25,885 nucleotides of DNA from Halovenus sp. (lineage in GTDB: Archaea > Halobacteriota > Halobacteria > Halobacteriales > Haloarculaceae), in contig PUMG01000034.1 of assembly GCA_003551265.1 (NCBI GenBank), positions 1-25,885 on the forward strand, read 5' to 3'. The position numbers and the translations under genes are program-made. Under the pieces are notes generated by a model. That model had not been told where the DNA came from, did not search any database, and saw only the letters and a list, made by a program, of their open reading frames with translations. Positions 7,916 to 20,318 of this stretch are shown in pieces (position 1 is the stretch's first letter; the number at the start of each line of letters is the position of its first letter).

Positions 7916-10042
7916 ATGGGTGAGCTATCGACGCTGTTTGCCCCGGAATGTGTCGCCGTTGTCGGGGCGTCCGACGAACCGGGCACCGTTGGCCACGCGA
8001 TTACGAAGAATCTGCGTGACGATTTCGAGGGGACTGTCGTTCCAGTCAACCCGAACCGTGAGAATGTACTCGGGCTCGAGTGTTATGACTCTGTCCGAGA
8101 GGCCAGCGAGGCTGATATAACTGTTGACGTTGCCGTTGTGGTCGTTCCACCGACGATTGCGCTTGACGTTATCGAGGAAGCCGCCCAGACCGGCGTCGAG
8201 AACGTCGTCGTCATCACTGCGGGCTTCAGCGAAGCCGGCAGCGAAGGCTCCGGGCGCGAACGCGAACTGGTCGCTCTCGCAGAGAAGTACGACCTGAACC
8301 TGGTCGGACCGAACTCTCTCGGTATCATGAGCACGACAGTCGGTCTCAACGCGACGTTCGGGCCACGAAGCGCTTCACCGGGTAATATCTCGTTCATGAG
8401 CCAGTCTGGCGCGTTCATCACTGCTGTCCTCGACTGGGCGGCCGACCGCCACCTCGGGTTCAAAGACGTCGTCTCACTCGGAAACAAAGCAGTCCTCGAC
8501 GAGAGTGATTTTATCAGACAGTGGGGCGATGACGAGGGAACAGACGTCATTCTCGGCTATCTGGAGGATATCGGCGACGGCCGGTCGTTCATCGACACGG
8601 CACAGACGGTAACCAGAGAGACGCCGATGGTGGTCGTCAAATCTGGTCGGACCGAGGCAGGAGCCTCCGCCGCAGCATCACACACGGGGGCAATCGCTGG
8701 CAGCGACACCGCCTACAGAGCTGGGCTCGAACAGGCTGGCGTGTTGCGAGTCGAGACCGTACAGGACCTGTTCGACTTCGCCTCCATCCTCGCTGGACAG
8801 CCACTTCCGGAGACGGAGGGCGTCGCGATTGTGTCCAACGCTGGTGGTCCGGGTGTGATGGCGACCGATGCCGTAGGTGACTCGTCACTCGAACTCGCAA
8901 CGTTCAGCGACGAGACGCTTGCCCGCCTCGAAGACCGACTCCCTTCGGAGGCGAATCTCTACAACCCGGTGGACATCATTGGGGATGCGACAATTGACCG
9001 CTTCGAGGACACGATAGACATCGTTCTCGACGACGAGAACGTCGGGATGGCCGTTGTTCTCTCGTGTCCGACGGCAGTTCTCTCCTATGAAGAACTCGCG
9101 GAAGTGATTGCATCGCTACACGAGAAACACGGAACACCTGTCGCAACGGCACTGATGGGTGGCTCCTCGACGGAGACCGCGGCACACACACTCAGCGAGA
9201 GTGGCATCCCCACGTACTTCGACCCGGAACGAGCAGTTCGCAGTCTCGACGCGCTCGCCAGGTACGCCCGGAGACGCGACCACGAGTACGAGACGCCAGC
9301 ACAGTTCGACATCGACCGGGAGCGCATCGACGAAATCCTCACGGCTGCGGTCGAATCTGGCCAGACCAGACTCGGAGTGGAGTCGATGGATCTGCTGGAG
9401 GCCTGTGAGATTCCAACTCCGACTGGGGAGGTCGTCAACAGTCCTCGTCGGGCGACAGCTGTCGCCCGCGAAATCGACGGTGATGTCGTAATGAAGATTG
9501 TCAGTCCGGATATCAGCCACAAATCCGACATCGGCGGCGTCGAAATCGGCGTCGCGACTGAGGAGGTCGCCGACACCTACGAGGACCTCGTCGTCAGGGC
9601 ACGCAACTACCAGCCGGATGCGAAAGTCCTCGGCGTCCAGATACAGGAGATGGTCGATGTCGATGCAGGGACAGAATCGATTGTGGGCGTCACCCGTGAC
9701 CCGCAGTTCGGACCGCTCGTGATGTTCGGACTCGGCGGTATCTTCGTCGAGGTGATGGAAGACACCGCGTTCAGGGTCGCTCCGGTTGCCGAATCAGCGG
9801 TCAGAGAGATGGTTGACGAGATTACCTCGTCACCGCTTCTGTACGGCGCGCGTGGCCGCGAGCGCGCTGATGTGGACGCACTGGTCGAGGTCATCCAGCG
9901 CATCTCCCAGCTCGTCACCGAGTTTCCGGTCATCACGGAGCTCGACATCAACCCCGTCGTCGTCCTTCCGGACGGCGTTGCAGCCATCGACCTCCGGCTC
10001 ACGCTGGACCCGGACGCAGTAACCACAGAGGTGGACTCATGA
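7916..10042 (+). CDS. acd: Acetate-CoA ligase (ADP-forming), single-chain alpha-beta fusion
   Basis: The enzyme converts acetyl-CoA, ADP and phosphate to acetate, CoA and ATP, the main archaeal way of making ATP from acetyl-CoA by substrate-level phosphorylation. The 708-residue product joins both subunits found separately in Pyrococcus. In order: a CoA-binding Rossmann domain (VAVVGASDEPGTVGHAI), succinyl-CoA-ligase-like domains, and a C-terminal ATP-grasp domain (from about residue 480). The His expected to carry phosphate is His256 in ASHTGAIAG; the relay His in the ATP-grasp part is His535 in ISHKSDIGGVE. I start at MGELSTLF (7916) because the upstream open frame is the antisense of the kinase gene. 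The stop overlaps the next gene by four bases. Related acyl-CoA ligases could use other acyl groups. Confidence 0.92.
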   Translation: MGELSTLFAPECVAVVGASDEPGTVGHAITKNLRDDFEGTVVPVNPNRENVLGLECYDSVREASEADITVDVAVVVVPPTIALDVIEEAAQTGVENVVVITAGFSEAGSEGSGRERELVALAEKYDLNLVGPNSLGIMSTTVGLNATFGPRSASPGNISFMSQSGAFITAVLDWAADRHLGFKDVVSLGNKAVLDESDFIRQWGDDEGTDVILGYLEDIGDGRSFIDTAQTVTRETPMVVVKSGRTEAGASAAASHTGAIAGSDTAYRAGLEQAGVLRVETVQDLFDFASILAGQPLPETEGVAIVSNAGGPGVMATDAVGDSSLELATFSDETLARLEDRLPSEANLYNPVDIIGDATIDRFEDTIDIVLDDENVGMAVVLSCPTAVLSYEELAEVIASLHEKHGTPVATALMGGSSTETAAHTLSESGIPTYFDPERAVRSLDALARYARRRDHEYETPAQFDIDRERIDEILTAAVESGQTRLGVESMDLLEACEIPTPTGEVVNSPRRATAVAREIDGDVVMKIVSPDISHKSDIGGVEIGVATEEVADTYEDLVVRARNYQPDAKVLGVQIQEMVDVDAGTESIVGVTRDPQFGPLVMFGLGGIFVEVMEDTAFRVAPVAESAVREMVDEITSSPLLYGARGRERADVDALVEVIQRISQLVTEFPVITELDINPVVVLPDGVAAIDLRLTLDPDAVTTEVDS

Positions 10043-11103
10043 GTACGATACTGGTCACGTCAACGGAAGAAGGGACAGGAAAGACAGCAATCACTATCGC
10101 CCTGGCGAAACTCCTCGCTGAGCGCGACGAAACAGTCGGCTACATGAAGCCCAAGGGCACTCGACTGGAGAGTGCCGTCGGGAAGACGCGTGACGAGGAC
10201 CCGATGCTTGCACGCGAGGTGCTCGGACTCGACGCGCCGATGCACACACTCGAACCAATCGTGTACTCGCCGACGTTCGTACAGGAGGCGATTCGCGGGC
10301 GTGAGAGCGTCGACGCACTTCGTGAGCGTCTTCGTGATGCGTTCGACGAACTGGCAGAGGACACTGACCATATGCTCCTCGAAGGGGGTGGCCGTCTCTG
10401 GACGGGCGGCATCGTGGAGTTGGCGGATACCGACGTGGCCGAGTTGCTGGATGCACAGATACTCCTCGTGAGTGGATACGACCAGCCAGAAGACATCGAC
10501 GAGGTTCTGGCTGCCGCTGCCGATATTGGTGACCGTCTCAGAGGTGTGTTGTTCAACAACGTCTCGGGAACCGATCTCGACGCACTCTCAGAGGACATCA
10601 TGCCGTTTCTCGACACTCGAGGTATCGAAACCATCGGTGCAGTGCCACACGACCCGGCACTCGCTGGCGTGACGGTCGATGAACTCGCGAGCAGTCTGGG
10701 TGCACAGATACTGACTCCCGACGCCCCCAGGGACCGCCGAGTAGAACGGTTCTCTGTCGGAGCGATGGGTGCCGAGGCGGCACTCAAACAGTTCCGCCGG
10801 ACACGAGCAAGCGCCATCATCACCGGTGGAGACCGGTCTGATATTCAGACGGCAGCGTTGCAGGCTTCGGGAACGGCGTGTCTTGTCCTCACCGGAGGGT
10901 ACCGTCCGTCCCAGGCAGTCCTCGGGAAAGCTACGGACAGAGGAGTTCCAGTCTTGCTCGTCCAGACGGACACGCGGACGACGATTGACCGGACGGAAGC
11001 CCGTCTTCGCTCGGGGCGAACACAGCGCCCGGAGACCGTCGAACAGATGGCCCGTCTGCTGGAAGAGAGTATCGACACTGAGAGTCTCTTCGAGCGCGAG
11101 TGA
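10039..11103 (+). CDS. BioD-like/DRTGG-domain protein (phosphotransacetylase N-terminal family)
   Basis: The 354-residue protein starts with a BioD-like P-loop domain (ILVTSTEEGTGKTAITIALA, Walker A within the first 20 residues; QILLVSGYDQPEDIDEVL; GVLFNNVSG) and ends with a DRTGG-type domain (VGAMGAEAALKQFRRTRASAIITGGDR, then CLVLTGGYRPS). This matches the regulatory N-terminal half of large phosphotransacetylases, without the catalytic acetyl-transfer domain. Its ATG overlaps the acd stop (ATGA), so the two are translationally coupled. Because Pta N-terminal domains sense metabolites and tune acetyl-phosphate flux, a regulatory role on the acetate ligase is plausible, but that is inference. 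It has no P-loop partner domain for biotin synthesis. Confidence 0.82.
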   Translation: MSTILVTSTEEGTGKTAITIALAKLLAERDETVGYMKPKGTRLESAVGKTRDEDPMLAREVLGLDAPMHTLEPIVYSPTFVQEAIRGRESVDALRERLRDAFDELAEDTDHMLLEGGGRLWTGGIVELADTDVAELLDAQILLVSGYDQPEDIDEVLAAAADIGDRLRGVLFNNVSGTDLDALSEDIMPFLDTRGIETIGAVPHDPALAGVTVDELASSLGAQILTPDAPRDRRVERFSVGAMGAEAALKQFRRTRASAIITGGDRSDIQTAALQASGTACLVLTGGYRPSQAVLGKATDRGVPVLLVQTDTRTTIDRTEARLRSGRTQRPETVEQMARLLEESIDTESLFERE

Positions 11104-11162: not shown

Positions 11163-11186
11163 GAAATAGGTGTATACACTTATTTC
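11163..11186. promoter_or_regulatory. 24-bp near-perfect palindrome overlapping a TATA-like sequence
   Basis: The left half GAAATAGGTGTA and right half TATACACTTATTTC-type arm are complementary at 11 of 12 positions; the only exception is a G/T pair at 11169/11180. The right half contains a TATA-like CTTATTT about 27 bases before the first hairpin at 11209. It looks like an operator covering a promoter for the candidate RNA that follows. It could also be a simple terminator hairpin for the upstream acd operon, although no T-tract follows. Confidence 0.55.
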
Positions 11187-11204
11187 ACTCGGGTATGTAG
11201 CTGT

Positions 11205-11313
11205 AAGTGGAGCCATCTGGCTCCGTAGTGTCACACGCGAGGAGGAACGTTCCGACCGCCTCCTCGGGTTCGACGTGGGGAGGACGTTCCGACCGCCCCC
11301 CCACATCTTTTTC
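11205..11313 (+). ncRNA. Candidate structured small RNA with twin hairpins sharing one loop
   Basis: Three stem-loops follow each other in the 243-base gap. Hairpin A: GGAGCC-ATCT-GGCTCC (11209-11224). Hairpin B: stem CGAGGAGG/CCTCCTCG (11238-11266). Hairpin C: stem GTGGGG-A-GG paired with a C-rich arm ending CCCCAC (11275-11304). B and C have different stem sequences that each pair, yet share the same 14 bases ACGTTCCGACCGCC (11247-11260 and 11284-11297) covering the loop and closing pairs. Different stems with the same loop point to RNA structure and a loop-binding partner. A T5 run (11308-11312) after hairpin C could be the terminator. The 5' and 3' ends given here are estimates from the TATA-like site and the T-run. 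I do not recognise it as a known RNA family. Confidence 0.45.
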
Positions 11314-18848: not shown

Positions 18849-20318
18849 TCAGAACGCCAGCGCGTCGACGACGATGGCGAGGAGGAACAGGCCGAGGTAG
18901 GCGTTCGAGGCGTGAAAGGCACGGAACGCCGCCTTCTCTGTCTGTTCGTGGTGCAGACGCACGACGGCCCACAGGAACACAGCCCCCAGGAGGACAGTCG
19001 TCAGAGCGGTGAGCCACCCGAGGTCGGTGACCCAGATGAGGAGACTCCCGAACACCAGCGTCGCGCCGAGCCAGAACAGGGTGTGTTTCCGGGTCGTCGT
19101 CTCGCCCCGGACGACGGGCATCATCGGGAACCCACCGCGCTCGTAGTCCTTCCTGTACGCGAGCGCCAGGTTGTAAAAGTGTGCGGGCGTCCAGACGAAG
19201 ATGAACGCCGCGAGCAGGAGTCCGGCGACGTCGATTCGACCGGTGACGGCCGCCCAGCCAATGAGCGCCGGGAGCGAGCCAGCAGCACCGCCGAGAACCG
19301 TGTTCTGAACGGTGTTTGGTTTGAGCACCAGCGTGTAGATGATGCTGTAGAACAGAATGGCGACGAATCCGAGCGCAGCGGCGAGTGCGTTGACCTGCAG
19401 AAACAGGAGAATCGAGAGCCCGGTGAGCACGAAACCAAACGCGACCGCGTTGCGTTTCGGGACCTGGTGTGTGGCAAGTGGTCGGTCGTTCGTGCGGGCC
19501 ATCCGCCTGTCACGGTCGCGTTCGAGCACGTGATTGAACGTGCCGCTCGCACCGATCGCAAGCACCCCTCCTGTCAGTGTTAAGACAATAGTTTCGACGG
19601 TGAGCGTCCACCCGCTCGCTGCGGCGAGTGCCATCGCGGCGGCGGCCACCAGACTGAGCAACCACATCAATCGCGGCTTCATCAGCCTGAAGTACGTTGA
19701 CACCCGCGTCCGAATCGTCGCTGGGAACGACTGGACTGCCGATTCGGGAGCAACAGTTGCATCCGGACCGTCGTGCTGTAGACGTTCCGTTCGAGCGGGT
19801 TCGAGCGGTGGCTCTTCGAGAGGAGCAGGTTCGAGTTCGGCGGTCGGAACGACCTCGTCGTCGGTTCCCGTCTCGGATTCGAGTTGCCAGGCAAGCGCGA
19901 GCAACAGGATGCCAAAGAGAGAGATGCCGACGAGCAGGTGCAGTCCGGGAACGAGTTCCACACCGCTGTCGATGGCGACCAGCGCACCGACACCAATCTG
20001 GGCGGGATACAGCGTGAGTGCGAGCACCGTGACGGCTTTCACCCGTCGGTCAGCGTCGCTGCGGAGGATAATGATGCCAGTGACAAGCACCAGCAGACCA
20101 ACGATGGCGGCGAGCGCCCGGTGTCCGAGCGCGACGGCGACAGCCGGGTCTGAGAGAGAGACCGCACAGCCAGGCCAGGTCGAACACGCCGCCGCAGCGT
20201 CGGCGAGCGACGCTGTCGCGCCGACGACGACCAGCACGTACACTCCGAGTACCGCGGCCGTCAACCAGCCTGTCGGCGTCACCTTCGAGAACTGCAGCGA
20301 GGACCCCCGAGTGAGCAT
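18849..20318 (-). CDS. ctaB: Heme O synthase (protoheme IX farnesyltransferase) fused to a CtaA-like N-terminal domain
   Basis: The 489-residue membrane protein has two parts. Residues 1-145 form four membrane spans with His-containing helices (LGHRALAAIVG; LVPGLHLLVGI) like half of heme A synthase/CtaA-COX15. A hydrophilic linker (about 148-198) follows. The C-terminal part is a UbiA prenyltransferase: the motif NHVLERDRDRRMARTNDRPL is the CtaB-type Asp-rich prenyl-diphosphate/Mg site and YNLALAYRKDYERGGFPMMPVV is the second family loop. It transfers a farnesyl-type group to heme B to make heme O for terminal oxidases. Fusions like this are known in haloarchaea. The half-CtaA domain may assist heme transfer or give heme A synthase activity; that is not shown. 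A TATA-like element (ACTTATGTA, 20340-20348) is upstream. Confidence 0.9.
   Translation of the reverse strand: MLTRGSSLQFSKVTPTGWLTAAVLGVYVLVVVGATASLADAAAACSTWPGCAVSLSDPAVAVALGHRALAAIVGLLVLVTGIIILRSDADRRVKAVTVLALTLYPAQIGVGALVAIDSGVELVPGLHLLVGISLFGILLLALAWQLESETGTDDEVVPTAELEPAPLEEPPLEPARTERLQHDGPDATVAPESAVQSFPATIRTRVSTYFRLMKPRLMWLLSLVAAAAMALAAASGWTLTVETIVLTLTGGVLAIGASGTFNHVLERDRDRRMARTNDRPLATHQVPKRNAVAFGFVLTGLSILLFLQVNALAAALGFVAILFYSIIYTLVLKPNTVQNTVLGGAAGSLPALIGWAAVTGRIDVAGLLLAAFIFVWTPAHFYNLALAYRKDYERGGFPMMPVVRGETTTRKHTLFWLGATLVFGSLLIWVTDLGWLTALTTVLLGAVFLWAVVRLHHEQTEKAAFRAFHASNAYLGLFLLAIVVDALAF

Follow-up and report, generated by a model that had tools for sequence, protein, structure and literature searches.

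The locus examined here is most likely an independent small-RNA gene, predicted on the plus strand of a Halovenus contig, and its product appears to represent a new small RNA (sRNA) family of the Haloarculaceae, for which cdrS is the well-supported predicted main target. The mechanism that we favor, and that we hold to be probable, is that a dedicated trans-acting sRNA would clamp the start of cdrS, block the initiation of cdrS-ftsZ2 translation, and thereby brake cell division. The covarying RNA family and its pairing and co-variation with one target were computed from genome sequences; transcription of the RNA, the block on translation, and the effect on division are what we infer from them.

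Structure of the locus

The window, i.e., the whole 25,885-nt stretch of DNA that was analyzed, is one contig of a 2.9 Mb draft genome comprising 380 contigs; its genus, Halovenus, and Haloarcula both belong to the Haloarculaceae. On the strand of the predicted sRNA, a CoA-ligase-type gene precedes an AAA_26/DRTGG gene upstream of the locus, and a convergent Amphi-Trp gene lies downstream of it. The features of the locus are:

10039 to 11103, plus strand: flanking gene with AAA_26 and DRTGG domains (Pfam), outside the RNA and a frequent upstream neighbor of the sRNA
11164 to 11185, strand not assigned: palindrome AAATAGGTGTATACACTTATTT, the right arm of which contains the TATA-like element
11179 to 11185, plus strand: TATA-like element, CTTATTT, at -30 relative to hairpin A
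11207 to 11313, plus strand: predicted small RNA, with the start placed from the TATA position and the end from the T5 run; covariance-model match over 11207-11278 at 50.7 bits
11209 to 11224, plus strand: hairpin A (GGAGCC-ATCT-GGCTCC), the conserved 5' hairpin, with 99.8% of cells paired over 72 distinct homologues
11225 to 11238, plus strand: linker GTAGTGTCACACGC, 14 nt; together with two preceding C (11223-11237), antisense to cdrS codons 2-7
11238 to 11266, plus strand: hairpin B, positioned where relatives have their covarying hairpin
11247 to 11253, plus strand: ACGTTCC in loop B, a 7-nt antisense match to GGAACGT at the genome's own cdrS start
11275 to 11304, plus strand: hairpin C, an additional hairpin with a loop identical to that of B, found in the window genome only (1 of 73 homologues has the direct repeat)
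11284 to 11290, plus strand: ACGTTCC in loop C, the same 7-nt antisense match as in loop B
11308 to 11312, plus strand: T5 run, the likely RNA end, read from the sequence

The three hairpins, the loop common to B and C, and the T5 run lie exactly where the original prediction had placed them. Its further claim of a plus-strand sRNA gene of about 105 nt holds insofar as the strand is structured and a start near 11207 and an end near 11312 can be placed from the sequence; the predicted length of ~105 nt in the window genome compares with ~60-75 nt in relatives. The palindrome that had been described as promoter-like fared less evenly: its right half contains a conserved TATA-like CTTAT, and its symmetry is absent from the relatives viewed. 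A CTTAT-like element stands at -30 from hairpin A in 55 of the 72 homologues, with TA at -11/-10, and the RNA should therefore begin near TGGAGCC. A trans-encoded sRNA is a separate gene with a promoter of its own; in the window genome the sRNA and cdrS are on separate contigs (C71 vs C216), and the TATA-like element provides a predicted promoter.

Hairpins B and C contain ACGTTCCGACCGCC twice (11247-11260 and 11284-11297) and form a single direct repeat of 17 nt at 94% identity with a spacing of 37 nt, because of which they look like a local duplication. A simple tandem duplication with stems that do not covary had been named beforehand as an outcome that would count against a structured RNA; the two copies do appear duplicated, with stems that have diverged and still pair. 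In the window genome, CGTTCCGACCGCC has three occurrences, namely the two loop copies and a minus-strand match at 19839-19851, which falls within an open frame of 489 aa and was dropped as an RNA copy. A 22-nt match on contig C186 was likewise rejected, as it lies in an apparent coding stretch and covers only part of hairpin B, with no linker. The 108-nt strand folds to -48.3 kcal/mol vs -38.1 ± 4.1 for its shuffles (z -2.5; 6 of 200 shuffles equal or better), and folded in isolation the hairpins have z of -4.2 (A), -1.8 (B), and -2.2 (C). Folding by itself makes the feature just moderately unusual, and we regard it as real because it is conserved rather than because of its fold energy.

Distribution and covariation of the RNA family

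The conserved parts of the family are a 5' hairpin GGAGCC-loop-GGCTCC, the linker GTAGTGTCACACGC, and one covarying hairpin, to which a GTTCCCCTTTG-like tail is added in most members. A DNA search of 18 genomes of the genus recovered 11208-11238 (hairpin A and linker) as the conserved segment, which is found in 17 of them, the exception being G014. A covariance model built from five relatives matched 141 of 146 family genomes, 114 of them strongly (E ≤ 7.7e-6; counted by hand from the listing) and 27 weakly, with five having no match, such that a strong match is missing in 32 of the 146. The weak matches inspected, in G014 and G056, fall on the antisense strand of cdrS.

Over the 72 distinct homologues, in an alignment that was fitted to the covariance model and is biased towards its structure, 96.5% of structure cells are paired and both sides have changed in 8 of 13 pairs, a level reached by 0 of 500 shuffles; when the partners were slid by 1-3 columns as a control, pairing dropped to 40-68%. 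Hairpin A is nearly invariant and most of the co-variation sits in hairpin B, while the linker, nearly invariant between the hairpins, is the most conserved part. Covarying homologues, the lack of which had been proposed as grounds for giving up the sRNA claim, are thus present, and the claim survives. One of the 73 sRNA loci (G092, linker GTCGTGTCACACGC) was missed by the linker pattern; it is included in the structure and repeat counts and excluded from the pairing tests. A direct repeat of at least 10 nt on the 3' side of the linker occurs in 1 of the 73 homologues, that of the window genome.

The original prediction did not recognize the family, which agrees with the result that Rfam 15 gave nothing in the window at curated thresholds; at a lax threshold a single miRNA family appeared (E 0.07, 19.9 bits vs the required 90), and the window contains no tRNA or tmRNA. 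Among 391 genomes of the class, strong matches fell within the family only, those outside having E ≥ 4.5e-4. The R1 search of 30 named genomes matched four family members at 1e-11 or better, and in the 26 named non-family genomes its best E was 0.0035, the nine matches inspected being either antisense cdrS or sequences that do not resemble the sRNA. The seed pattern, run on 15 named genomes, returned cdrS and a dozen single matches, of which 11 were inspected and none had hairpin A, linker, and hairpin B together. Beyond the family, the DRTGG locus was found in 17 of 18 genomes, with the linker absent within 600 nt downstream. Plasmids gave just one weak Streptomyces match, and exact GGCTCCGTAGTGTCACAC was not found in viral contigs. 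The cdrS-leader search of seven Haloferax genomes made no recurring RNA apparent; across the R1, seed-pattern, and cdrS-leader searches (7, 5, and 7 genomes, all other than H. volcanii), no relative of the sRNA was found in Haloferax.

Several isolated observations were made along with these searches. In Halogranum amylolyticum (L366, ~1490-1530), GGAACGTAGTGTCACACGTTCCCATTCCCCC reads as a linker-like hairpin with a tail 3' of it, the tail being antisense to GGGGGAAT in the cdrS leader of that genus; the stretch is contained in an open frame next to an integrase-like gene and may be either chance or a divergent relative. Halobacterium sp. KA-4 (L343/L318, ~1516) has exact GTAGTGTCACACGC followed by TCCCCCTTGTG in open frames, likely of a flagellin-related gene, and this match, which is without hairpins A or B, is probably due to chance. 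Haloferacaceae archaeon XH8 (G476) has two equal-scoring cdrS copies near the record ends (C1, 64534 and 2894770), which may be an assembly terminal overlap.

Predicted pairing with cdrS

Judging from its position before ftsZ2 and its RHH-type start, the target gene is cdrS, which opens the cdrS-ftsZ2 division operon; its start reads MERVTLRIPKQQ, and ftsZ2 (FtsZ match) is directly 3' of it. CdrS is described as a cell-division regulator (PMC7439475, PMC8406309). Across the 18 genomes of the genus, 28 sites match the 14-mer CCGTAGTGTCACAC exactly, 15 in the sRNA and 13 antisense to cdrS, with none elsewhere. Pairing was assessed in genomes for which both partners could be read, i.e., 54 for the linker site (site 1) and 53 for the tail-leader site (site 2), duplex energy, and joint folding; G012 was left out of the 53 for its short leader, and G014, one of 57, had no cdrS in the retrieved stretch.

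Site 1 is predicted to comprise cdrS codons 2-7, paired by the linker. All 16 of 16 positions are Watson-Crick in 32 of the 54 genome pairs, and in the 12-nt linker core 646 of 648 cells pair over the 54 genomes, four as G-U, such that G-U accounts for four of the six deviating cells. Four genomes have Leu CTG in place of CTA at this site; three retain U opposite the G, and in G010 the sRNA has also changed, to C. The cdrS start is conserved class-wide, including families in which the sRNA was not found, and its conservation is therefore not creditable to the sRNA alone; something else also holds the cdrS start.

Site 2 is predicted in the cdrS leader, ~7 to 24 nt upstream of the ATG. A common form of the tail 3' of hairpin B is GTTCCCC(T)TTG, and CAAAGGGGAAC is its counterpart in the cdrS leader. 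Tail and leader change together: GTTCCCCTTTG goes with CAAAGGGGAAC in genus g13, TTTCCCCTGTG with CACAGGGGAAA in G003, TCTGTCTGTGG with CCACAGACAGA in G118, AGTCTGTG with CACAGACT in G131, and GTTTGTG with CACAAAC in G124. Over the 53 genomes, the mean run score was 9.30 for true partners vs 7.72 ± 0.17 for shuffled ones (0 of 20,000 reached it), and shuffling within genera gave 8.65 ± 0.14 (again 0 of 20,000); in draws limited to a single genome from each genus, the true-partner score was reached in 0 of 2,000. Duplex energy followed the same pattern (-21.4 for true partners vs -18.95 ± 0.39 shuffled; 0 of 5,000; 53 genomes). Because the sRNA and cdrS loci are separate, such matched change appears hard to explain except by pairing. 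The leader would lie within the mRNA, since T/A-rich elements stand ~146-166 nt before the cdrS ATG in 18 of the 20 cdrS loci viewed.

When the two RNAs were folded jointly, the mean gain was 27.3 kcal/mol (53 pairs) vs 7.5 ± 3.5 with shuffled mRNAs (25 of the 53 genomes), and hairpin B was nested between the two helices. Leader pairs were missing from 6 of the 53 cognate folds (G006, G101, G103, G124, G125, G143).

The window genome's own copy is the weakest sRNA-cdrS pair. Its cdrS sequence is ATGGAACGT, compared with ATGGAGCGT in the 55 other family genomes that were read; 15 of 16 linker-cdrS pairs are retained, the usual tail-leader pairing is lost, and its joint-folding gain of 14.1 kcal/mol is inside the shuffled-control range (largest 19.7). 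The ACGTTCC of its loops matches its own start GGAACGT over 7 nt, compared with 4-5 nt for the starts of 15 other Halovenus, and 522 of 20,000 shuffled loops (2.6%) match as well by chance. The twin loops may thus add a start-codon contact in this genome, which we take as a lead and not as proof; such a contact would explain why both loops stay while their stems drift. ACGTTCC also resembles CGTTCCCC of other tails and may represent a tail remnant.

The cdrS leaders themselves (L064 before 1494; L292 1380-1502; others) contain a repeated palindrome, GTAAGAC...GTCTTAC, together with a GGGG(A)AA element and a near-fixed coding start. This pattern is common to the Haloarculaceae, Haloferax, and Halobacterium and could represent CdrL sites or RNA hairpins.

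Proposed mechanism

We propose that the RNA, ordered as hairpin A, the 14-nt linker, the variable hairpin B, and a GTTCCCCTTTG-like tail that most relatives possess, would pair through its linker with cdrS codons 2-7 and through its tail with the leader, such that the start codon would be bracketed and hairpin B would project from the junction between both helices. The clamp would keep the ribosome off cdrS, and because ftsZ2 directly follows cdrS, FtsZ2 would be lowered as well, resulting in a post-transcriptional brake on archaeal cell division. That the effect would be a block is suggested by the two sites flanking the start codon. Both the linker in the sRNA and site 1 in the mRNA are predicted to be 41% unpaired in isolation, and binding may therefore need refolding or a helper protein.

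The same RNA and target could also work in the opposite direction, with binding stabilizing or activating the cdrS mRNA, e.g., by masking a cleavage site. The pairing data are silent on the direction of regulation, and sRNA154 of Methanosarcina mazei is reported to stabilize some mRNAs and to block the translation of another (PMC5867862); however, both sites are beside the start codon, where the mRNA alone is fairly open (predicted unpaired 0.63 at -6 to +4) and presents no obvious block for an sRNA to lift, and we consider activation unlikely. The sponge envisaged by the original prediction, whose repeated loops would sequester a protein or a different RNA, fits the presence of the loop in two copies on different stems, and its notion of an RNA partner is retained here in the form of the cdrS mRNA, which is predicted. 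The twin loop, though, is limited to 1 of 73 homologues, the parts that would bind are the linker and the tail, and it is the linker that is most conserved; a sponge is accordingly a very improbable function for the family.

Common descent alone would do without pairing: the RNA gene would have arisen when the cdrS start was copied in inverted orientation, with the likeness due to chance or gene conversion, and given the class-wide conservation of that start an old copy could have remained similar. Yet the tail and leader vary between genomes and match within genomes, even inside genera, hairpins A and B are without counterpart in cdrS, and the linker-core deviations fall largely on G-U (4 of 6 cells), all of which makes this explanation extremely improbable. 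Finally, the GC-rich hairpins, the T5 run, and the DRTGG gene that precedes the RNA in the same orientation at 41 of the 56 loci with flanks might suggest mere transcription terminators or decay-stopping hairpins of an upstream operon, to which we assign a practically negligible probability given that the RNA is retained in the 15 of 56 loci without a DRTGG neighbor, that the TATA element stands at a fixed distance, and that the linker between the hairpins is nearly invariant.

Relationship to CdrS regulation and to known systems

An sRNA that clamps the cdrS start could in turn be part of a self-limiting loop, in which CdrS would activate the sRNA and the sRNA would shut cdrS-ftsZ2 translation, with the contacts re-wired in Halovenus and the twin loops replacing the lost tail; we put this extension forward tentatively, as doubtful on present evidence. 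Four genomes (G139-G142) have a TCTGAC-N4-GTCAGAC-like site just upstream of the sRNA promoter, as in ftsZ1 promoters of the family. A matrix derived from seven ftsZ1 promoters matched at p ≤ 0.05 in 13 of 72 sRNA upstream regions vs 13 of 55 cdrS upstream controls, with the best matches in G139-G142 and weak ones elsewhere. HVO_1885s of Haloferax volcanii is reported to be an RNA gene whose function is unknown; a CdrS site lies 41 nt upstream of its start, and its log2 fold change upon cdrS repression is -2.2 (PMC8406309). The likeness is that of an RNA tied to CdrS, as described in that report, and the Haloferax searches yielded no sequence link to the sRNA. As a separate observation on the ftsZ1 promoters (L173-L179), six of seven genomes have two GTCAGAC/GTCTGAC-like half-sites four bases apart, a candidate CdrS operator, and the window genome's own ftsZ1 promoter has one half-site.

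Deletion of CdrS is reported as not achievable in H. volcanii (PMC8406309). For Halobacterium, cdrS-ftsZ2 is described as probably regulated post-transcriptionally by an unknown route, with mRNA and ribosome occupancy diverging in Halobacterium salinarum, and an antisense RNA close to the 5' end of ftsZ2 is described in H. volcanii (PMC8303175). The Halobacterium divergence serves only as background here, because no such sRNA was found in H. salinarum by the R1 and seed-pattern searches. Among the open-licence papers listed, neither titles nor abstract openings describe an sRNA that acts on cdrS or ftsZ2. If the proposed mechanism is true, a dedicated sRNA would supply the molecule for a post-transcriptional route of cdrS-ftsZ2 regulation in the Haloarculaceae, which is testable in Haloarcula. 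To our knowledge and in our judgement, an archaeal sRNA with its main target predicted from evolution alone would be rare.

Contact of an sRNA with its mRNA at two sites is known from OxyS-fhlA in Escherichia coli, in which the sRNA touches the mRNA at the ribosome binding site and within the coding part; OxyS differs from the RNA described here in its kissing loops and many targets, and the two are not homologous. Among archaeal sRNAs, sRNA154 of M. mazei, as described in PMC5867862, is alike in having two stem-loops, one loop of which masks the glnA2 ribosome binding site; it differs in belonging to a nitrogen regulon, in its several targets, and in binding by loops, whereas here the linker and tail would bind and the loops are a lead in the window's own genome. 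sRNA162 of M. mazei, going by the account in PMC3510493, has another sequence, host, and target, and in comparison with it the RNA proposed here would have a second pairing site that brackets the start codon and is conserved with its target across the family.
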